64,000 nucleotides of DNA from Flavobacteriaceae bacterium PS02337 (GTDB taxonomy: Bacteria; Bacteroidota; Bacteroidia; Flavobacteriales; Flavobacteriaceae). Location of the stretch: the NCBI GenBank assembly GCA_029959285.1, contig JASCOE010000009.1, positions 124,001-188,000 on the forward strand, given 5' to 3'. The notes beneath the pieces were generated by a model. It saw nothing but the letters and a program-made list of their open reading frames with translations. It was not told the origin of the DNA and did not search any database. Both the position numbers and the translations under genes were made by a program. Of the stretch, positions 11,403 through 57,286 are shown one piece after another; positions within the stretch are counted from its first letter, which is position 1; each line of letters opens with the position of its first letter.

Positions 11403-11507
11403 TATCAAAACTTAAGATTACAAAAGTAAATTACTTTCTTCATAAATATCCGAAAAATCAACGATTATACTTAATTTTGCTTCTATTAAAACTTAAAAAA
11501 TAATTAC

Positions 11508-47937: not shown

Positions 47938-50523
47938 TTAAGCTGAATTTCTACTAGCATTTGTATTCCCAAAAAGAGATCTCGTTACGATTTTCTCATA
48001 CACTTTAACCAATTCTTCGTCTGGAGTTTCTGATTTATTTAACTCATTGATTCTCAATAATGCATATTGCTGAATTGTCAATAATGGCAATACAATACGC
48101 TCTCTAATTTGAATCGATGCTATACCGTCAGGATAATTTTCCATCAAAGTTTTGTGATCTGCAATTTTCAACAAAAGACGTTTTGTTTCTGAGAATTCAT
48201 CGTAAATAATTTGCCAGAACTCACCAAATTCAGGATCGTTTCTCATATATGCTGTCAATGGCAGGAATGATTTTGCCAATGACATCATACTATTTTCTAA
48301 CAATGTTTTGAAAAACAATGAATTGTGATATAAATTACTCACTTTATCCCATTGTCCAGATTCTTCAAAATGTTTTAAAGCTGAACCAACTCCAAAGAAA
48401 CCTGGAACGTTTTGTTTCAATTGACTCCAAGAACCAACAAAAGGAATTGCTCTTAAATCAGCAAAATCTAAAGATTCAGATTTGCTTCTTTTTGAAGGAC
48501 GGCTTCCAATATTTGTTTTTGAGTAATATTTCAACGTACTCATTTTTTCCAAGTAAGGAATAAACTTTGGATGATTTTTAAAACTTAAATATTTCTCGTA
48601 ACCTAAATTCGCTAAATCAGTTAAGATTTGAGTTTCATCTGCGGTTAATTCGTTTTTACCTTTACTGAAAACCTGATTTGTAACACCAGCACTCAATAAA
48701 TTTTCAATATTATAACGGCAAGAATCTAAAGTTCCGAAATTAGAACTAATTGTCTGACCTTGAACAGTAATTTGAATTTCGTTATTCTCAATTTTTGGTC
48801 CTAATGAAGCGTAGAATTTATGTGTTTTTCCACCACCACGTGCTGGAGGTCCACCACGTCCGTCGAAGAAAATAGCTTTAATTCCGTATTTTCTAGAAAT
48901 TTCCGTTAAAGAAATTTTAGCCTGATAAATACTCCAGTTTGCCATTAAATAACCGCCATCTTTTGTTCCGTCAGAGAAACCAAGCATAATAGTTTGTTTG
49001 TTTCCTCTTTCTTTCAAGTGTTTAGAATATTCTGGATTCGTATACAATTGCTCCATAATAGAATGAGCATTTTGCAAATCGTCAACAGATTCAAAAAGCG
49101 GAATAATATCAACTGTAGGATTTTCCCAATTATTCAAACGAATCATTGCGAAAGTTTCCATTACGTTTAAGGCACTTTCATTATTACTAATAATGTAGCG
49201 GTTTGCACCTTCTTCTCCATTATTAGTTTGAATAGTTTTAATTGCTTGAACAGATTCTAAAGTTGATCTTGTAATTTCATTTTCAAAATCAGCAGGATTT
49301 AAATTTCCTTTTACTTTAGATAAAACATTGATTTTTTCATCTTCTGTTAATTCATAGTAATTTTCAGGAAAAATTGCTGAACCAGAATTCAGGTAATAAT
49401 TTACAACATCTTTAAAAACTGCATTATGGATTTTACTATTCTGACGAATATCTAAAGTCGCAAAATGAAATCCAAATAAGTTGATTTTTACTAAAAATGC
49501 TTCCAATTCATCTAAATATAAAGACTGATGTTTCTCAATAATTATAGTTCGGATTTTATCTAATTGAGTAAGCAATTCTTCTAGAGTGATAAAAATTTCT
49601 CCTTTAGAATAGAAAACAGAACGGTAAAGTTTATTTTCAAGTTCGGCTACCAAAGTGTCTACACCTGAGAAAGTTAACTTACGTTTTAGATTTCTCATTT
49701 CAACATAATAACACTTTAAAATTGAAGTACGCAAACGATCTGCAACTTTTAGTGTAATCTCTGTAGTAACAAACGGATTTCCATCACGGTCACCTCCTGG
49801 CCAGAAACCAAGTTTTATTAATTGGTTCTGAATTGGATTTCCTTCCATTATATTTTTTTGAAGGTAATGTACAATTTCCCCAGCTGTAGCGTAAAATACA
49901 TTTTCCAAATACCAAATCAAACTTACCGCTTCATCATACGGATTAGGTTTTTCGTTTTGAATAAAAGGAGTTTTACCAAGCTGCGCTAGTAATTGTTTGA
50001 TCTGCAAAAGATCATTTTGACGAATAGCTTCCGTCAAATCATTTATAATTCCTAAAACAGGTCCAGGATAAAACTGAGTCGGGTGAGCTGTTAAAACCGT
50101 ACGAACATTGAAATCTTCAAGAAATTGAATTAATTCGTCGTCTTTTTCTTTAGCATCCGATTTTTCTTTAATATCACGCAAAGATCCGCGTCCTTCCATG
50201 TTGTTAACTTCTGGAAAAGCAGCATCTTCAATAGCATCAAACAATACAATCTGACGCTCGATATATTGAATAAATCGAAACATTAAGTCGATTTTCTCCG
50301 TTTCTGAAGCGTTGTTTAGAAATTTATTTGAAAAGAAATCTACAATTTCTTTCGGTGTTTCTTGTTTTTTAAAGCCCGTTTCGCAAGTTTCTGTAAATAA
50401 AGGAAGTAAGACTCCCGTATTATCTATAGAATCAAAAGGTAATGTTATAAAAACACTATTATAAATGTGGTATTTTGAGAGAACATCTTGATTAAAACGT
50501 TCAATTTTTGGCAACGTATACAT
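47938..50523 (-). CDS. ppc: Phosphoenolpyruvate carboxylase
   Basis: 861 aa, makes oxaloacetate from PEP and bicarbonate, an anaplerotic step. The catalytic histidine region is VLTAHPTQFYPGPV (about 140-153), and the flexible active-site loop is FFDGRGGPPARGGGKTHKFYASLG (about 555-578). C-terminus ends with GNTNASRNSA (the family's conserved TxN-G tail is NTxxGxxxN; here SLFGNTNASRNSA). Full length. Distant from other TCA genes here. Downstream DinB gene is coupled. Confidence 0.96.
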   Translation of the reverse strand: MYTLPKIERFNQDVLSKYHIYNSVFITLPFDSIDNTGVLLPLFTETCETGFKKQETPKEIVDFFSNKFLNNASETEKIDLMFRFIQYIERQIVLFDAIEDAAFPEVNNMEGRGSLRDIKEKSDAKEKDDELIQFLEDFNVRTVLTAHPTQFYPGPVLGIINDLTEAIRQNDLLQIKQLLAQLGKTPFIQNEKPNPYDEAVSLIWYLENVFYATAGEIVHYLQKNIMEGNPIQNQLIKLGFWPGGDRDGNPFVTTEITLKVADRLRTSILKCYYVEMRNLKRKLTFSGVDTLVAELENKLYRSVFYSKGEIFITLEELLTQLDKIRTIIIEKHQSLYLDELEAFLVKINLFGFHFATLDIRQNSKIHNAVFKDVVNYYLNSGSAIFPENYYELTEDEKINVLSKVKGNLNPADFENEITRSTLESVQAIKTIQTNNGEEGANRYIISNNESALNVMETFAMIRLNNWENPTVDIIPLFESVDDLQNAHSIMEQLYTNPEYSKHLKERGNKQTIMLGFSDGTKDGGYLMANWSIYQAKISLTEISRKYGIKAIFFDGRGGPPARGGGKTHKFYASLGPKIENNEIQITVQGQTISSNFGTLDSCRYNIENLLSAGVTNQVFSKGKNELTADETQILTDLANLGYEKYLSFKNHPKFIPYLEKMSTLKYYSKTNIGSRPSKRSKSESLDFADLRAIPFVGSWSQLKQNVPGFFGVGSALKHFEESGQWDKVSNLYHNSLFFKTLLENSMMSLAKSFLPLTAYMRNDPEFGEFWQIIYDEFSETKRLLLKIADHKTLMENYPDGIASIQIRERIVLPLLTIQQYALLRINELNKSETPDEELVKVYEKIVTRSLFGNTNASRNSA

Positions 50524-50556
50524 AATCGTGTTATAGTTGGTTGGTTAATTAGTCAT

Positions 50557-50585
50557 AAAAAAACCCCAAGAATAAACTTGAGGTA
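50557..50585 (-). terminator. Terminator of the Lrp-family gene
   Basis: Minus strand: ACCTCAAG - tttatt - CTTGGGGT followed by T7. It lies 29 bp after the stop of the 50615 gene. Confidence 0.82.
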
Positions 50586-50614
50586 TATTTTAATATAGCA
50601 TTCAAGAAAAGTTA

Positions 50615-51094
50615 TTACATATTTTTGAAAATAGTATGCATCAAACGCTTCTTATCGTTTATACTTTCCTCTAATGAAATCATTGTTTCTGTTCTGTAAA
50701 CACCTTCGATATCGTCAATCATAAAGATAACTTCTTTCGCGTGTTTAGTGTCTTTTGCTCTAATTTTGCAAAAGATGTTGAATTTTCCTGTAGTTACAGA
50801 AGCTACAGTTACGAATGGAATTTGATTAATTCTTTCTAATACAAATTTAGTTTGAGATGTATTATTAAGGAAAACCCCAACATAAGCAATAAATGAATAA
50901 CCTAATTTATCGTAATCTAAGGCTAATGAAGACCCCATGATGATACCGGCATCCTCCATCTTTTTTACTCTAACGTGTACTGTACCAGCAGAAATCAATA
51001 GTTTTTTTGCAATGTCAGTAAACGGAACTCTCGTATTGTCTATTAACATATCTAAAATCTGGTGATCTACTTCATCTAAACGAAATTTACTCAT
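50615..51094 (-). CDS. Lrp/AsnC-family transcriptional regulator
   Basis: 159 aa. The N-terminal winged helix FRLDEVDHQILDMLIDNTRVPFTDIAKKLLISAGTVHVRVKKMEDAGII (about 4-52) and the RAM ligand-binding domain FIAYVGVFLNNTSQTKFVLERINQIPFVTVASVTTGKFNIFCKIRAKD (about 68-115) are both complete. Members sense amino acids. Single gene with its own terminator; the carboxypeptidase gene upstream lies 78 bp away on the same strand. Confidence 0.93.
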   Translation of the reverse strand: MSKFRLDEVDHQILDMLIDNTRVPFTDIAKKLLISAGTVHVRVKKMEDAGIIMGSSLALDYDKLGYSFIAYVGVFLNNTSQTKFVLERINQIPFVTVASVTTGKFNIFCKIRAKDTKHAKEVIFMIDDIEGVYRTETMISLEESINDKKRLMHTIFKNM

Positions 51095-51171
51095 AATTGT
51101 TTAATTAATATTACTAATTGCTATTACAAAGTATAAAATTATATATAAAAAACAACAAATTCACAAAAAAA

Positions 51172-52326
51172 TTAACTTTTTATTAATCCGTTAACAAATT
51201 TAACATTTTTATTTAAATAAAAATTTGCTTTTTGTCCCACTTTCGGAAAATTCGAGAAATCGTCTGAATATTCTTGCCCTTTTGCATCGTATTCATAATG
51301 TCCAAAATATTTTTCCAATTCGCCTACTTCAACTATGTAAGCGTTAAAATGAATCTTATTTTCGATTAATTCTTCTTTGTATTGTGCGACAAAATTCGTA
51401 ATAATTTCGATACCATCATAATTTATTTTGACATTTTTATACATAAAATCATAAAAAACCACATTATTTTGTGAAATATTCAAATATTCACCAAATCTAT
51501 TATCAACTAAATCGTTTTCGGAAATCAATTTGAAGCTCAAAATTAACGAGAAAAAGATGAATTTACGTGTGATTTCTCTCTCGTAGTCATCTGGAAAGTG
51601 CCCTGCTTCAAATAAAATGGTCGGAACCCCCAAAAACTGAAAAGTGTCTCCAATACAATTAATATTAAAAGAATCATCAAAACGTCCAACTTGACCTGGA
51701 ATGTATTTTTGAAGTTCTTCATTAATTCCAGCAATGACATTTATAGCCTTTAAACGATTATCATTTACTTCTCTTTCTTCATTATATGAAGGTGCTAAAA
51801 AGGAAACAGTTGCGGGTTTTCCTGTAGTTCCTGCTCCAAAAATAGTACGCTGATCATGAAGATTAAAACAGTAATGAGGTTTAAAAGTTTCGAAAACTTG
51901 ACGTAAAACATTGCTTTCTGGCTGTGTTAAATCTTGAGAATCACGATTTAAATCTATCTCATTTGCATTTGCACGTGTATAAAGTCTTGCACCATCAGAA
52001 TTTAAAATCGGAATACTATAAAAGGTAAAAGTTTCAAGTAGTTTTTTTGATAAGTCGGTATCGTCGTTTAATAGATTTATAAAATCAAAAAGAGCTTTTG
52101 TTGTAGTGCTTTCGTTACCGTGCATTTGTGACCATAAATACACACGGATTTTTCCTGTTCCAATTTGGTAACTATATATAGGTTCACCTAAAACCGATTT
52201 TCCTATTGTTTGAACTTGGTTATCGGTATTGAGTTTATCTAAAAGCGGTTTAATATGATCTAGTGTTAGATATCTTCCAGATATTGATTGCTCTTTGTAC
52301 TGAGTAAAAAGTTGTTCTAAATTCAT
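51172..52326 (-). CDS. M14-family zinc carboxypeptidase-like protein
   Basis: 384 aa. Zinc ligands: HGNE in WSQMHGNESTTTKALFDF (His and Glu, about 69-72) and His in PHYCFNLHDQRTIFG (about 155). The catalytic Glu lies in ILFEAGHFPDDYERE (about 242). No signal peptide, so it would be cytoplasmic, acting on peptides with unusual tails. Its promoter region carries TTTAC-N4-GTAAA sites that also cover the adjacent XRE gene, so that regulator probably controls it. Confidence 0.88.
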   Translation of the reverse strand: MNLEQLFTQYKEQSISGRYLTLDHIKPLLDKLNTDNQVQTIGKSVLGEPIYSYQIGTGKIRVYLWSQMHGNESTTTKALFDFINLLNDDTDLSKKLLETFTFYSIPILNSDGARLYTRANANEIDLNRDSQDLTQPESNVLRQVFETFKPHYCFNLHDQRTIFGAGTTGKPATVSFLAPSYNEEREVNDNRLKAINVIAGINEELQKYIPGQVGRFDDSFNINCIGDTFQFLGVPTILFEAGHFPDDYEREITRKFIFFSLILSFKLISENDLVDNRFGEYLNISQNNVVFYDFMYKNVKINYDGIEIITNFVAQYKEELIENKIHFNAYIVEVGELEKYFGHYEYDAKGQEYSDDFSNFPKVGQKANFYLNKNVKFVNGLIKS

Positions 52327-52340
52327 TGTGTTTTGATTAG

Positions 52341-52354
52341 TTTACAAAAGTAAA
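52341..52354 (-). promoter_or_regulatory. XRE operator site A overlapping the carboxypeptidase -7 box
   Basis: TTTACAAAAGTAAA. On the minus strand it contains the -7 box TACTTTTG (52345-52352). It is 14 bp before the M14 gene's start codon. Confidence 0.75.
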
Positions 52355-52364
52355 CATCTTTATT

Positions 52365-52378
52365 TTTACAATTGTAAA
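52365..52378 (-). promoter_or_regulatory. XRE operator site B
   Basis: TTTACAATTGTAAA, fully palindromic, 24 bp (start to start) from site A and over the -33 region of the carboxypeptidase promoter. Confidence 0.75.
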
Positions 52379-52397
52379 TTATTAAAAACAACAATAA

Positions 52398-52411
52398 TTT
52401 ATAAATGTAAA
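52398..52411. promoter_or_regulatory. XRE operator site C (one mismatch)
   Basis: TTTATAAATGTAAA, 9 of 10 consensus positions. Lies between the two promoters. Confidence 0.5.
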
Positions 52412-52576
52412 CACCTTTTCTGTCTTTTAAGTTCAATAATGTGTATAAAGAGTTAGTAAAGAAAAAGCTGTGTTAAAAAATAAATTATTTTATTTAATTT
52501 CAATAACTTATGTATGTTTATTTAAATTATCACTTTGCAATTAAACACCATCAATTGTCTTATTGTTATCCGTAAT

Positions 52577-52607
52577 TTGCTATAGTTAAACTTTTTATTT
52601 ACATTTG
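52577..52607 (+). promoter_or_regulatory. Promoter of the XRE gene (TTG-N20-TACATTTG)
   Basis: TTG 52577-52579, 20-bp spacer, TACATTTG 52600-52607, which lies inside operator site D, 31 bp before the start codon. Confidence 0.72.
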
Positions 52608-52611
52608 TAAA
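52598..52611 (+). promoter_or_regulatory. XRE operator site D over the -7 box
   Basis: TTTACATTTGTAAA. It covers the -7 box TACATTTG of the XRE promoter, a position typical for repression. Confidence 0.75.
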
Positions 52612-52632
52612 TAGATAATTTTCTAACAATAA

Positions 52633-52646
52633 TTTACAATGGTAAA
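52633..52646 (+). promoter_or_regulatory. XRE operator site E overlapping the start codon
   Basis: TTTACAATGGTAAA, with the ATG start codon (52639-52641) inside the spacer and right arm. 35 bp (start to start) from site D. Confidence 0.7.
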
Positions 52647-53091
52647 CATAGACGATTTTGTAAAAAGACTCGAAGTTTTAATGGATTATTACAGCTTGAG
52701 TACTTCTGCTTTTGCAGATAAAATTGGTGTGCAACGTTCGAGTATGTCGCATTTATTATCTGGAAGAAATAAACCTAGTTTAGATTTTGTAATGAAAATT
52801 ATAGAAGTTTTTCCAGAAGTAGATTTATATTGGATCTTACTTGGAACTGGAAATTTTCCAAAAAGACATGAAGATGTTTCTTTAAAAAATGAAAAAACCA
52901 TCTCTTCTATTTTACCAAATGAAAATTTTGGAGAAGATTTATTTTCTCCAATCGAATCAAAAGAAGAGAAAAAAGCAGAAACTAAAATTTCATCAGAATT
53001 AGAAAACTCAATTTTTAGTTTAACAAATAAAGAAATTGAGAAAATCGTGATTTTTTATAAAAACGGAAGGTTTAAGGCTTATTCTTCATAA
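52639..53091 (+). CDS. XRE-family helix-turn-helix regulator
   Basis: 150 aa. Residues 4-65 form the HTH_XRE domain, with VKRLEVLMDYYSLSTSAFADKIGVQRSSMSHLLSGRNKPSLDFVMKII; the QRSSMSHLL helix is the recognition helix. The C-terminal 80 residues are flexible and charged (KEEKKAETKISSELENSIFSLTNKEIEKIVIFYK), ending with a helix that may help dimerise. Its start codon lies within an operator copy, so autorepression is expected. No phage or toxin partner is seen. Divergent from the M14 gene. Confidence 0.9.
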   Translation: MVNIDDFVKRLEVLMDYYSLSTSAFADKIGVQRSSMSHLLSGRNKPSLDFVMKIIEVFPEVDLYWILLGTGNFPKRHEDVSLKNEKTISSILPNENFGEDLFSPIESKEEKKAETKISSELENSIFSLTNKEIEKIVIFYKNGRFKAYSS

Positions 53092-53160
53092 TTGAAAAAT
53101 TAGCGCGTATTTGAATCTTGGTACAGAAAATTTTTATTTACGCGATTCTCACGCGTTTCA

Positions 53161-53194
53161 AAAAAAAGCCTGATTCTATATCGGAATCAGGCTT
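53161..53194 (-). terminator. Terminator after the 53214 gene (minus strand)
   Basis: AAAGCCTGATTC / GAATCAGGCTT with an A7 run on the plus side (T run on the minus strand). It also lies past the XRE stop. Confidence 0.8.
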
Positions 53195-53213
53195 AATAGT
53201 AGTTTATTATAAA

Positions 53214-54218
53214 TTATTTTCTAAAAACAAAAACAGATGTTACGCCTGCTTCCAATCTCACATTTGTTGGAGCAAAATCCCCAGATGCAGTTGGATATGT
53301 ATAAGTTAGAACTTCTCCACTAGCATTTAATCTTTCAGCAACATAAATCTTTTTTGTTACTTGATCATAAGCAACATCAACTGGATTTCCTAGAAGCGAA
53401 TTTGGACCATAAATTCTTATTTGGCTCGTTTGTGCAATTGTTCCTGCCGCAGCAGTTGAATTAAATACAGATGTGAAATTCTTTATAAAAATTAATCCAC
53501 CATCAGTTCCCGAAGTTGCACTTCCAACATCTGTAAGAATCATAGTATCATCTGAAGCTGAATATGTAATTCCGTGTGTGCGAACCAAACCTGCAATTGT
53601 AACTCTTTTTGTAGCTGTAATATTTCCAGATGCATTATTCATATAATCTTTAAATAAAACAATATCACCCGTTAAATCGGCTACAGCATATAAATCATTT
53701 CCATTTAAATGAATTCCCCATAACTTAAAATCGGTTGTAAATGTTTTTACTAAAGTAAAACCTGTAGCAGTTTTGTTATAAACAAAAAGTTTATTAATCA
53801 TACCGTTTGAAGCTAACTGATCTTGTGCAACAATTACAACATTACCCGAAACGGCAGTTTCTCTTGCATTATTAAATTCGGTATTCAAACCACTCAAAGT
53901 CAACTTTAAGTTATCCGTTCCAGCTTTAACAGCTTCTTTTATGCCTGTGTAAGTTTCTAATTTATTATTAGTTCTAGAAGCGACAATAACTGCGTCGGTA
54001 TCGCTATTATAAGATATTCCCTCAGCATCTAATGATGCTATAGTAAAAGATTTAACCATTGCAGAAGATGATAATAAATCTTGGTAAGTAATTTTTCCAG
54101 AAGTATTACTAGATGTCAATAAGACTGCTTCACTAGAATTTGTTTTTTCAGAATCGCTACTGTCGCATGATGCAAGAATAGCTACTAAAAAGGCCGATGT
54201 AATAATTATTTTTTTCAT
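53214..54218 (-). CDS. Lipoprotein, predicted beta-propeller
   Basis: 334 aa. MKKIIITSAFLVAILASCDSSDSEK gives a lipobox LASC with Cys19 and a Ser/Asp-rich start that suggests membrane sorting. The mature part has repeated strand patterns such as VIVASRTNNKLETYTGIK, NVVIVAQDQLASNGMINKLFVYN, GNDLYAVADLTGDIVLFKDYMN, DDTMILTDVGSATSGTDGGLIFIKNF and KIYVAERLNASGEVLTYTYP. These look like propeller blades (NHL/YVTN type), often carbohydrate or ligand binding. Not assigned to a known function. Confidence 0.78.
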   Translation of the reverse strand: MKKIIITSAFLVAILASCDSSDSEKTNSSEAVLLTSSNTSGKITYQDLLSSSAMVKSFTIASLDAEGISYNSDTDAVIVASRTNNKLETYTGIKEAVKAGTDNLKLTLSGLNTEFNNARETAVSGNVVIVAQDQLASNGMINKLFVYNKTATGFTLVKTFTTDFKLWGIHLNGNDLYAVADLTGDIVLFKDYMNNASGNITATKRVTIAGLVRTHGITYSASDDTMILTDVGSATSGTDGGLIFIKNFTSVFNSTAAAGTIAQTSQIRIYGPNSLLGNPVDVAYDQVTKKIYVAERLNASGEVLTYTYPTASGDFAPTNVRLEAGVTSVFVFRK

Positions 54219-54301
54219 ATATATAATTTTTGAAAGTTAATTATACTTACGAGAAAAATGTTAACTCGGTTTTAATGAGAAAATTCTTTTGTTCTTTTTT
54301 T

Positions 54302-54853
54302 CTAAATTGAATAAGCATTTTCAGGAATTTTTCCCAAAACACCTTTGTAATGTTTTTTTAAAACTTCAAAATCGGCCTCATAATTTCCAGTTGGAAAAAA
54401 TGGTTTTCCTAAATTCACTTCTTTCTTTCCCCAATCAAAAGTTACAGGTACAATCGGCACATTCGCTTTAAGCGCTATAAAATAAAAACCTGTTTTTATC
54501 TCGGTTACTTTTTTGCGTGTTCCTTCTGGAGCAACTGCCAAACGAAAAACTTCTTTTCGATCAAAAATGGCCGCAATAGAATCTACTTTATTTAATCCGC
54601 CAGAACGATCTAAAGGTTCACCTCCGACACTTCTAAAATAATAACCAAACGGAAATTTAAATAATTCCTTCTTTCCTACCCAATTCATTTCCAATCCAGA
54701 AATTCCACGTGTAAAAAGTCCGATGTAAAAATCGTGATTACTCGTATGTGGCATAACCATTAAGATACATTTTTTTACTTCGGCATTTTCTATTCCTACT
54801 ATTTTCCAGCCCATTAGCTTAAAAAATAAGAATTTGTATAATAGTTTTTTCAT
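54302..54853 (-). CDS. PlsC-like glycerolipid acyltransferase
   Basis: 183 aa. HTSNHD in MPHTSNHDFYIGL (residues about 36-41) is the HX4D acyltransferase motif, and EGTRKKVTEIKTGFYFIA with APEGTR is motif III. FGYYFRSVGGEPLDRSGGLNK resembles the substrate-binding loop. The N-terminal short hydrophobic part may anchor it to the inner membrane. Probable 1-acylglycerol-3-phosphate or related lipid acylation; shorter than PlsC (about 240). Confidence 0.84.
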   Translation of the reverse strand: MKKLLYKFLFFKLMGWKIVGIENAEVKKCILMVMPHTSNHDFYIGLFTRGISGLEMNWVGKKELFKFPFGYYFRSVGGEPLDRSGGLNKVDSIAAIFDRKEVFRLAVAPEGTRKKVTEIKTGFYFIALKANVPIVPVTFDWGKKEVNLGKPFFPTGNYEADFEVLKKHYKGVLGKIPENAYSI

Positions 54854-54917
54854 TAATCATTCAAAATTTGATGCAAAATAAAAGATTTAATGCTAAATTT
54901 GAGTAAAAGCATTCAAA

Positions 54918-55583
54918 ATGATTCAAAAAATTTTCAGTTATATTATCCCAATAAAAATATTCAAAAAGAAATCTGCAAGAAGCAAAATAATTGAAGTTAC
55001 ATGGGCAAATGGTGAATTAGTATTGGATTCTGAAAATACTAATTATTCATACGGAAGTTTGCAACGCATTTTAAGATACGGACTTAGAAATATCGGTTAT
55101 GATAAAATTTTAGAAATGGATCATATTCTATTATTAGGAGTTGCCGGCGGAAGCGTCGTAAAAACATTGGTAGATGAAATTGAATATAAAGGAAAAATAA
55201 CTGGAGTTGAGATCGACTCAGAAATGATTCAAGTTGCTAATCAATATTTTAACTTAAACAAAATTGAACAATTAGAACTTGTAATCGACGATGCATTTGA
55301 ATTTGTTTTAAAAACCAAAGACAAATACAATCTTATTATTATAGATGTTTTTGAAGATACAAACATGCCAAATTTTTTATTTGAAAAATTCTTTTTAGAT
55401 AGAATTTGCACGTTGCTAAAAGACGAAGGATTTATTTTATTTAATACCATGATTTTGGATGAAGCCCACAACGTTCGAAATAGAAAATATATTTCTGAAA
55501 TAAACCCAAAAATGTTTAAAGCCAAAATGCTGCCCCGAATAGAAGTACACAACGAATTAATAATTATAAACAAAGTTGCTTAA
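54918..55583 (+). CDS. Spermidine synthase-like SAM methyltransferase-fold protein
   Basis: 221 aa. HILLLGVAGGSVVKTLVDEIEYKGKITGVEIDSEMIQVANQYFNL (about 73-117) is a class I SAM-binding region; the second motif DDAFEFVLKTKDKYNLIIIDVFE (about 126-148) has an acidic residue typical of spermidine synthase-like folds. Without a typical putrescine-binding loop, a spermidine synthase claim is not secure. The M23 peptidase gene starts 6 bp after its stop, so they form an operon. Confidence 0.8.
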   Translation: MIQKIFSYIIPIKIFKKKSARSKIIEVTWANGELVLDSENTNYSYGSLQRILRYGLRNIGYDKILEMDHILLLGVAGGSVVKTLVDEIEYKGKITGVEIDSEMIQVANQYFNLNKIEQLELVIDDAFEFVLKTKDKYNLIIIDVFEDTNMPNFLFEKFFLDRICTLLKDEGFILFNTMILDEAHNVRNRKYISEINPKMFKAKMLPRIEVHNELIIINKVA

Positions 55584-55589
55584 ATTTTT

Positions 55590-56267
55590 ATGAAACCCCT
55601 TAGCTCCATATTAAACGCCTTACCGCCTACTAAAGTTATAGATGCTGAAATTTTGATTTCAGAATATACACCAGTCAATTTATCAAATTCGAATCAAGAA
55701 TTAGTCAATGCAAAATTGGAAACTTCTGAAGATTTTGAAAAATACATTTCAAATTATTTAAAAGAAAACAGTGCAAAAGTTGCCTTTGGCGGTTACATCG
55801 AAGGTCGGTTTTTATACCAGAGAAGTTCTATTTTTTTAAATGAATTTGCTCCTGAACGTAACATTCATATTGGTTTAGATTTATGGACAGAAGCCGGAAC
55901 GAAAGTACTAGCAGCACTTGACGGAAAAGTTCATAGTTTTAAAAATAACGAAGGTCTGGGCGATTATGGTCCAACTATTATTTTAGAACATGAAGTAGAA
56001 AACGAGAAATTTTATACTTTATACGGACATTTATCGTTAGAAAGTATAGAAAATTTAAATGTCGGAGACAATTTTAAGAAAGGTGAAAAAATCGCCACTT
56101 TAGGAGAAGCCTCAGTAAATGGAGATTATGCACCCCATGTCCATTTTCAAATCATTCACAATATACAAGATTATTGGGGAGATTATCCTGGTGTTTGCAA
56201 TACAAAAGATCTAAACTTTTATATAGAAAATTGTCCCGACCCAAACTTATTATTAAAAATTACTTAA
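55590..56267 (+). CDS. M23-family (LytM) metallopeptidase without signal peptide
   Basis: 225 aa. Zinc ligands of the LytM core: HIGLD (H-x3-D, about 91-95) and HVHFQ (H-x-H, about 189), with TILEHE-type strands between. There is no signal peptide or lipobox, unusual for a peptidoglycan hydrolase. The gene is 6 bp after the methyltransferase-fold gene and 6 bp before a lipoprotein gene, so it is likely translated in one unit with both. Confidence 0.85.
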   Translation: MKPLSSILNALPPTKVIDAEILISEYTPVNLSNSNQELVNAKLETSEDFEKYISNYLKENSAKVAFGGYIEGRFLYQRSSIFLNEFAPERNIHIGLDLWTEAGTKVLAALDGKVHSFKNNEGLGDYGPTIILEHEVENEKFYTLYGHLSLESIENLNVGDNFKKGEKIATLGEASVNGDYAPHVHFQIIHNIQDYWGDYPGVCNTKDLNFYIENCPDPNLLLKIT

Positions 56268-56273
56268 ATAGTT

Positions 56274-56750
56274 ATGAAGAAAGCGGGATTGATTATATGT
56301 TTGTTGTTATTAATTGGATGTAAATCTAAAACAGTTAGCAGAGATACAGAAGATTTAAAAATTAAAAAAGTTTCTACAGCAGAAGTAAATGCAAATCAGC
56401 AGCGAAAGGCTTATGATTTAGGAAAGAGAGTTTTAGAAACTTGTAATACTTCAAAATTTAAACCTTTTAATGAAACCGAAGTAACTAAATCGGTAATGGA
56501 AAACACTACAGAAGAGCGTTTAACCAAAACCTGTCAAAGATTTAGACAATACTACGGAAGTTTTATAGATTTAAAATTAGATGGAGTTTACAAAACCAAG
56601 CAAGAAGTCATTTATCGTTATCACGCATTGTATTCTAAAAAAATAGCAAACAAAGAATTACGCATTTTTGTAAATGAAGACAATCTTGTTTCAGCAATAA
56701 AATCAATGGATTGGGATGAAAAATTTGACGCCAAATTAGCCGATCAATAA
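56274..56750 (+). CDS. Lipoprotein of unknown function
   Basis: 158 aa. MKKAGLIICLLLLIGCKSK gives a clear lipobox LIGC with Cys16. The rest is helical and basic (ANQQRKAYDLGKRVLETCNTSKFKPF, SVMENTTEERLTKTCQRFRQYYGSFIDLKLDGVYKTKQEVIYRYHALYSKK), which looks like a small alpha+beta domain with an antiparallel sheet. No family recognised. Gene sits directly between the M23 gene and another secreted protein. Confidence 0.75.
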   Translation: MKKAGLIICLLLLIGCKSKTVSRDTEDLKIKKVSTAEVNANQQRKAYDLGKRVLETCNTSKFKPFNETEVTKSVMENTTEERLTKTCQRFRQYYGSFIDLKLDGVYKTKQEVIYRYHALYSKKIANKELRIFVNEDNLVSAIKSMDWDEKFDAKLADQ

Positions 56751-56761
56751 ATATAAAAACT

Positions 56762-57286
56762 ATGAATTTTAAATTACCGCTTCTTCTTTTATTGTTTGTT
56801 TCAACTTTTGCCATCGCACAGCAAACTATAAGTGTAAAAGGTTCTGCGCCTTATTCTGCAACCCAAGAATATACATTTATATGTGAAAAATATGCTTACA
56901 CAGGCGAAATAAAAGTTCAAATAGCAAAGACAGACAAAGGCGGTATTTTAAAATTGACAGTTTTAACAGCAAATGACAAAGCTAGAATTGCAGGTGGCGT
57001 TTACGTAGACTTAGCAAATGCAGACGTTATAGCTTGCACAGACAAAAATGTAAAAGAATCTGCAGATGGCTCAACAACAGCTTATTATTACTTTACTCCA
57101 GCAGAATGGCTAAAGCTAAAAAAGAATGATATTTATGCTGTAAGATTCATAATTGCTGGAGGTCCAGATAATTTTGGCAATCAAACCGGACATTTTACCG
57201 CGCATAACAAAATGAACTTTTTTTCGACCGCTTACGATAAATCAAAAAAATCTTTCGATACAGCTAAAGAAATTAGTGTATTGTAA
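56762..57286 (+). CDS. Secreted protein of unknown function
   Basis: 174 aa. Signal peptide MNFKLPLLLLLFVSTFAIAQ, cleavage after AIAQ. Mature part is beta-rich (QTISVKGSAPYSATQEYTFICEKYAYTGEIKVQIAKTDKGGILKLTVLTANDK). It looks like a single beta-sandwich domain; a Ca-binding or carbohydrate-binding role cannot be read. Located 11 bp after the lipoprotein gene, so possibly one operon with the M23 gene. Confidence 0.72.
   Translation: MNFKLPLLLLLFVSTFAIAQQTISVKGSAPYSATQEYTFICEKYAYTGEIKVQIAKTDKGGILKLTVLTANDKARIAGGVYVDLANADVIACTDKNVKESADGSTTAYYYFTPAEWLKLKKNDIYAVRFIIAGGPDNFGNQTGHFTAHNKMNFFSTAYDKSKKSFDTAKEISVL

Follow-up and report, generated by a model that had tools for sequence, protein, structure and literature searches.

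A conserved array of predicted operators between an XRE regulator gene and a divergent M14 metallopeptidase gene in Flavobacteriaceae

XRE-family autorepressors with a divergent target gene are a known general kind of regulatory circuit. The lambda CI repressor is described as linking two sets of three operators that lie ~2.3 kb apart (PMC5880393), and the operator of CopY had been given as TACANNTGTA (PMC7253601). For the primary sigma promoters of Bacteroidota, one account locates the -7 box between -12 and -5, gives TAHHTTTG as its revised consensus, and finds the -33 motif to be far less obvious in F. johnsoniae (PMC6847099). The locus presented here, in which a gene for an XRE regulator (XRE hereafter) and a gene for an M14 metallopeptidase (M14 hereafter) diverge from a gap filled with palindromes, is a circuit of known kind that is unusually deeply conserved, and it is distinct by a start codon lying inside a predicted operator and by sites that fall into two groups, each of three at most. 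No account of this operator, protein or gene pair was found in the open-licence literature, which is weak evidence of absence. That XRE stays beside one peptidase while its operators are near-fixed suggests a core, uncharacterised process, perhaps (and this is speculation) the turnover of peptides or wall fragments. The predicted operator and target are defined well enough for direct tests in a tractable laboratory Flavobacterium, with the species lacking XRE as natural controls.

Layout of the locus and clustering of the motif

The window, i.e. the whole stretch of 64,000 nucleotides that was analysed, lies on contig C56 of a 5.7-Mb genome (G000), and the best matches to its XRE protein among the named genomes compared are found in Flavobacterium. 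A first-pass annotation of this DNA had described a five-copy array in the gap between M14 and XRE, and our motif scan recovered it as four exact copies and one near copy of TTTAC-N4-GTAAA (Table 1). The same annotation had placed the minus-strand -7 box in site A, the plus-strand -7 box in site D and the ATG of the regulator in site E, all of which is borne out by the sequence. Both boxes, as read from the sequence, fit the TAHHTTTG consensus, and assigning them to -12 to -5 gives a predicted leader of ~14 bases for M14 and ~27 for XRE. An in-frame TAA at 52630-52632 means that XRE has no ATG earlier than 52639.

Table 1. Genes, promoter elements and predicted operators at the M14/XRE locus, in window coordinates
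Feature	Position	Strand	Match or spacing	Basis or remark
M14 metallopeptidase, 384 aa	51172-52326	-		ORF; divergent from XRE; predicted target gene
Operator A (predicted), TTTACAAAAGTAAA	52341-52354		exact TTTAC-N4-GTAAA	motif scan
Minus-strand -7 box of M14, TACTTTTG	52345-52352	-		inside operator A
Operator B (predicted), TTTACAATTGTAAA	52365-52378		24 bp from A	over -33 region of M14 promoter
Operator C (predicted)	52398-52411		one mismatch, degenerate left arm; 33 bp from B	
Operator F (predicted, sixth, decayed)	52562-52575		36 bp before D	defined from relatives' gaps
TTTG, candidate -33 element of XRE promoter	52576-52579	+	20 bp before -7 box	read from sequence
Operator D (predicted), TTTACATTTGTAAA	52598-52611		exact	motif scan
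Plus-strand -7 box of XRE, TACATTTG	52600-52607	+		inside operator D
Operator E (predicted), TTTACAATGGTAAA	52633-52646		exact	contains XRE start codon 52639-52641
XRE regulator, 150 aa	52639-53091	+		ORF; divergent from M14

When the gap was shuffled 20,000 times with its dinucleotide counts preserved, one exact copy of the motif arose in 134 cases and two copies in none, versus the four observed, and the five copies with at most one mismatch compare with a maximum of three in 20,000 shuffles. A weaker, pattern-blind test that accepts any repeated 5-4-5 palindrome yielded at least four copies in 33 of 20,000 gap shuffles. Locally, the gap shuffles thus agree with the earlier statement that four exact copies in ~300 bp are far above chance. 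The first-pass annotation had also listed one other 9/10 match, at 11417-11430; this match does exist, but it is not the sole one, as eight other matches with at most one mismatch are present in the window. A fifth exact match lies at 53746-53759, inside a 334-aa ORF (53214-54218). Over the whole window the 14 matches with at most one mismatch are mildly high with respect to a shuffle mean of 8.0, 14 being reached in 2 of 100 shuffles.

Over the whole genome there is no excess of the exact motif (34 occurrences versus 38 for the reversed pattern), and the exceptional feature is the clustering of the sites in the M14/XRE gap, not their genome-wide abundance. Four of the 34 exact sites lie in the gap, one in the 334-aa ORF of the window and 29 elsewhere. 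A wider regulon is unsupported by the 27 of these 29 that were surveyed (the two left out being C53:209683 and C56:84748): 24 lie in long open frames, two (L222 and L226) are apparently non-coding and one (L232) is ambiguous. A pattern describing two neighbouring sites matched this genome twice, each time inside the M14/XRE gap. Similar clustering elsewhere, which had been named beforehand as a result that would speak against the array, was looked for with both exact sites and the paired-site pattern, and was not found. The sites of 40 other genera (see below) refine the predicted operator to TTTACA-N2-TGTAAA, and this refined motif, at one mismatch or less, is twice as common genome-wide as its reversal (140 versus 73). 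Part of this excess may consist of promoter boxes; as it stands, it counts against a single target for XRE. Among the matches listed for relatives, paired sites outside the gap number at least two in G008 and at least one in each of G010, G024 and G036, and among those listed for XRE-less relatives at least one in G013 and at least five, of another kind, in G002. In the latter genome, TTACCGCGGTAA palindromes come in pairs, spaced by 22 bp, at C1:117979-118034, C14:49210-49243 and C57:4931-4986, forming another regular operator-like or repeat array.

Conservation of the sites and their fate after loss of XRE

Within Flavobacterium we gathered 80 + 30 XRE loci from two genome sets, the window's own included, one of which (L051) ends before M14. 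Dropping identical gaps left 100 distinct ones of 268-314 bp, again with that of the window. The alignment of gaps across relatives that the first-pass annotation had called for finds the sites kept in all 100, each gap carrying 2-5 exact sites and 4-7 sites with at most one mismatch, at nearly fixed offsets. Site A has the highest exactness of the six (exact in 98 gaps, at most one mismatch in 100); E is exact in 90 and within one mismatch in 100, B in 87 and 99, F in 48 and 66, D in 28 and 97, and C in 4 and 86, respectively. In site D each column of the core TTACATTTGT is 100% conserved, and site C keeps its right arm GTAAA at 99-100%. Sites A and B form a 24-bp pair in 99 gaps, and C and F are 164 bp apart in 51. 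Position F in the window shows no match to the motif, either in the motif scan or among the aligned genus gaps, and F is probably an ancestral site that has decayed there. The mean majority-base frequency across the 100 gaps is 0.937 in site columns (n=84) versus 0.633 in other gap columns (n=236). Codon 2 of XRE is GTA in 96 gaps and codon 3 is AAC in all 100; such near-invariance of codons in or beside site E is what a constraint by DNA binding would predict. With identical gaps counted as well, 79 loci give 291 exact copies of the motif over 26,670 gap positions versus two over 473,334 flanking positions, which makes the motif more than 2,500 times as dense in the gap as in the flanks.

In a sample of 199 genomes drawn from across the family, 181 gave an XRE match (E <= 1e-15), corresponding to 180 of 198 genera. 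We fetched 40 of the 179 extra-genus matches, one per genus, picked from the match list before the gaps were seen, and M14 diverges from XRE in all 40 of these other Flavobacteriaceae genera. Their gaps hold 56 exact sites versus a shuffle mean of 0.18 and a maximum of 2, and 144 sites with at most one mismatch versus a mean of 3.47 and a maximum of 10 (300 shuffles each). Loss of the sites from orthologous gaps, the other outcome named in advance as contrary to the array, is not seen in any of the 40, all of which have at least one site within one mismatch; at least two are found in 36 and an exact one in 32. The XRE start codon lies inside a site with at most one mismatch in 33 of these genera, and the 24-bp A-B spacing is found in 18.

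In 20 loci from other families of the order, the 400 bp upstream of the XRE match contain a site with at most one mismatch in 17 cases (none in the other three) and an exact one in 7. The exact upstream sites number 8 versus a shuffle mean of 0.07, and 2 in an equal length inside or after the gene; M14 was seen in 7 of these 20 fetched stretches. When genomes across the class were searched with a profile, 30 of 119 gave a match (E <= 1e-12). Among 26 XRE-match loci from other orders, an exact site lies in the 400 bp upstream (just 117 and 150 bp in two of them) in 10 and a site with at most one mismatch in 16, the remaining 10 showing none in the upstream stretch; there are 15 exact upstream sites versus a shuffle mean of 0.05 and a maximum of 2, and 1 in an equal length inside or after the gene. 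M14 was not found in any of the 26 fetched stretches, and the upstream neighbours vary in the 11 loci inspected. Since the palindrome often precedes XRE relatives that show no M14 in the fetched stretch, the bond of this kind of XRE to its predicted operator seems older than its bond to M14. In two class-level genomes (L287 and L288), the XRE relative lies ~200 bp after a gene that we take to be RecF-like, with several such palindromes in between.

Fifteen of 60 genus genomes lack an orthologue-level XRE match (13 have none, G016 and G042 weak ones), five of the fifteen being less than 90% complete, and all fifteen keep M14. In 11 of them one of the two genes found beyond XRE in the window, presumably an acyltransferase-like and a YncE-like gene, now lies directly upstream of M14; of the other four loci, three are cut off by the end of the contig and the fourth (L131) is flanked by other genes. 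The scoring covered 75 M14 loci, taken from the genus as well as the rest of the family and its sister families, of which 73 were used; the two dropped had less than 190 bp upstream (L130, and L136, for which XRE is found on a different contig of the genome). At least two sites are present in 49 of the 50 loci with XRE, the exception being L246, which has no site, and in 2 of the 23 without it (L115 and L117, with two sites of at most one mismatch each), leaving 21 without. At least 10 changes between presence and absence of XRE fall on the M14 tree. The association of the sites with XRE stands on seven well-supported independent pairs, of which mostly 5 agree with it, none opposes it and 2 show no difference (median p = 0.0625), a limit to its weight. 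A deletion of XRE can mechanically remove adjacent DNA and so mimic joint loss, and that several of the XRE-less genomes are incomplete assemblies likewise counts against this argument.

A TAHHTTTG box within 60 bases of the M14 start is retained in 14 of the 23 loci without XRE versus 48 of the 50 with it, and a palindrome with at most one mismatch sits at the retained box in two of these 14 (L115 and L117) and at none of the other 12. The -7 box thus often outlives the palindrome, which indicates that the operator is distinct from the promoter, and that the two, albeit overlapping, can be separated by their fate after loss of the regulator. This answers in part the caveat attached to the original description, namely that -7 boxes resemble the motif: loci without XRE often keep the box and mostly lose the palindrome. 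A second, longer M14 paralogue (open frame of 470-499 aa) occurs in 6 of 18 XRE-less family genomes (L249-L254), with no site of at most one mismatch within 500 bp upstream.

The two proteins and the proposed regulation

XRE matches the Pfam family HTH_3 (27 bits versus a cut-off of 23), and its score for the CI-repressor HTH PF07022 lies right at the border (22.3 bits versus a cut-off of 22). Its AlphaFold2 model (mean pLDDT 66.3, pTM 0.47) has a confident helix-turn-helix domain at 1-74, with five helices in residues 4-68, a disordered linker at ~78-131 with almost all pLDDT <50, and a low-confidence C-terminal beta hairpin at 135-149; neither the Pfam search nor the model reveals a C-terminal S24/LexA-like domain. 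The conserved parts are the helix-turn-helix and the tail, and S37, H38, R43, N44 and S47 of the former are invariant in 61 sequences. M14 matches Peptidase_M14 (44.7 bits versus a cut-off of 21.6) and shows no signal peptide by eye. Its H69, E72, R118, N127, R128, H157 and E240 do not vary across 37 aligned sequences and, going by known M14 chemistry, are presumably the zinc and catalytic residues. The nearest named relatives, MpaA among them, appear only weakly similar: M14 scores 29.5 bits against MpaA NF007897, with a cut-off of 157, and weakly matches PDB 4axv (E 0.026), whose 243-residue chain it exceeds by 141 residues. On the same strand, 77 bp beyond M14 (gap 51095-51171), lies a gene that we take to be of Lrp/AsnC type; its identity among the loci in which it was seen is 94-100%, and it might be co-controlled with M14.

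We consider it likely that XRE is a dedicated autorepressor that also represses M14, acting from operators on the -7 boxes of both genes and from an extra operator over its own start codon. XRE would bind the TTTACA-N2-TGTAAA palindromes as a dimer. On the M14 side, A would cover the -7 box and B the -33 region, and on the XRE side D would cover the -7 box and E the start codon, at ~+22 to +35 of the transcript, while F, where present, would sit just upstream of the -33 region of XRE. These positions would suit both exclusion of RNA polymerase and a road-block, neighbouring dimers possibly cooperating, so that a single gap could provide negative autoregulation and repression of M14, to be released by a signal. 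Two observations speak for XRE as the binder: gene and sites tend to be lost jointly, and palindromes lie upstream of XRE relatives without M14 in the fetched stretch. The direction of the effect, repression, we infer from site position only. More ambitiously, and tentatively enough that we would rather doubt it than not, the pair may be as old as the class: XRE proteins with an SGRNKPS helix would bind TTTACA-N2-TGTAAA at their own promoters across Bacteroidia, and Flavobacteriaceae would have built from this a lambda-like switch with two clusters and up to six sites, dedicated to one core peptidase and perhaps involving a short DNA loop.

Some phage repressors activate at one promoter, and XRE might similarly repress its own gene only and activate M14, or B and C might aid RNA polymerase there. 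The position of B and C upstream of the M14 -7 box, the 24-bp A-B spacing in 99 of 100 genus gaps, and the retention of M14 in all 15 XRE-less genus genomes, which implies that it is usable without the regulator, can be read in this way. Yet A, the top site of the six with 98 exact copies in 100 gaps, covers the M14 -7 box, which fits polymerase exclusion, and a -7 box is kept in 14 of 23 loci without XRE, so that expression may need no activator; we thus regard activation as unlikely. Whether another regulator, e.g. of the BlaI/MecI/CopY type, binds the sites was considered because the core palindrome is identical, the CopY core TACA-N2-TGTA being contained in the refined motif, and the window's genome has three matches to PF03965 (BlaI-type). 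However, none of the 34 exact sites lies within 50 kb of these three genes on the same contig, and of seven XRE-less genomes searched five have PF03965, all five without an exact site upstream of M14 (in L126 over 194 bp only). The sites follow XRE, not the PF03965 genes, and we set aside such a binder as very improbable.

Least credible of all, to our mind, is that the palindromes are promoter parts only, with TAnnTTTG -7 boxes resembling half of the motif. Two sites do coincide with -7 boxes, but B, C, E and F, four of the six positions, are not -7 boxes on the present reading, with B, C and E well conserved; 12 of the 14 XRE-less loci with a box have no palindrome of at most one mismatch at it, and a density in the gap more than 2,500 times that of the flanks is hard to reconcile with such an artefact. 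We therefore rejected it, given also how often the box outlives the palindrome without XRE. A phage origin of XRE finds no support in a comparison with phage records, which gave six weak matches, the longest 23% identical. The record with this longest match, labelled Bacteriophage sp. (L275, MT836585.1 9974-13426), carries an XRE relative alignable over its full length, an exact TTTACAGATGTAAA that precedes the matched region by 108 bases, and what we take to be a HIT-family gene; with this content it is probably a bacterial contig.

Comparison with known systems

Predicted autorepression of XRE together with M14 recalls several described systems. The likeness to lambdoid CI/Cro lies in an XRE protein with, by sequence, an HTH_3/CI-type DNA-binding domain, and in palindromes over divergent promoters, with up to two groups of three in the relatives that keep F. 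Yet this XRE is chromosomal and keeps one and the same neighbour gene across the family, no prophage genes were noticed among the ORFs listed at 48000-57000, its two groups of sites are ~165 bp apart, looping here being speculation, and in place of a peptidase-type C-terminal domain it has a linker and a probable hairpin. The BlaI/MecI/CopY operators, given as TACANNTGTA in PMC7253601, have an identical core palindrome, whereas the DNA-binding protein differs and the sites described here track XRE. On the side of the predicted target, the murein tripeptide amidase MpaA shares the M14 family and the weak NF007897 and 4axv matches, but M14 stays far under the NF007897 cut-off and is 141 residues longer than the 4axv chain. 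XRE-family autorepressors share the arrangement of a divergent regulator and target around a common gap with sites over both promoters; this locus differs from them in the number and strict conservation of its sites, in a start codon that lies within a site, and in the depth of its conservation.
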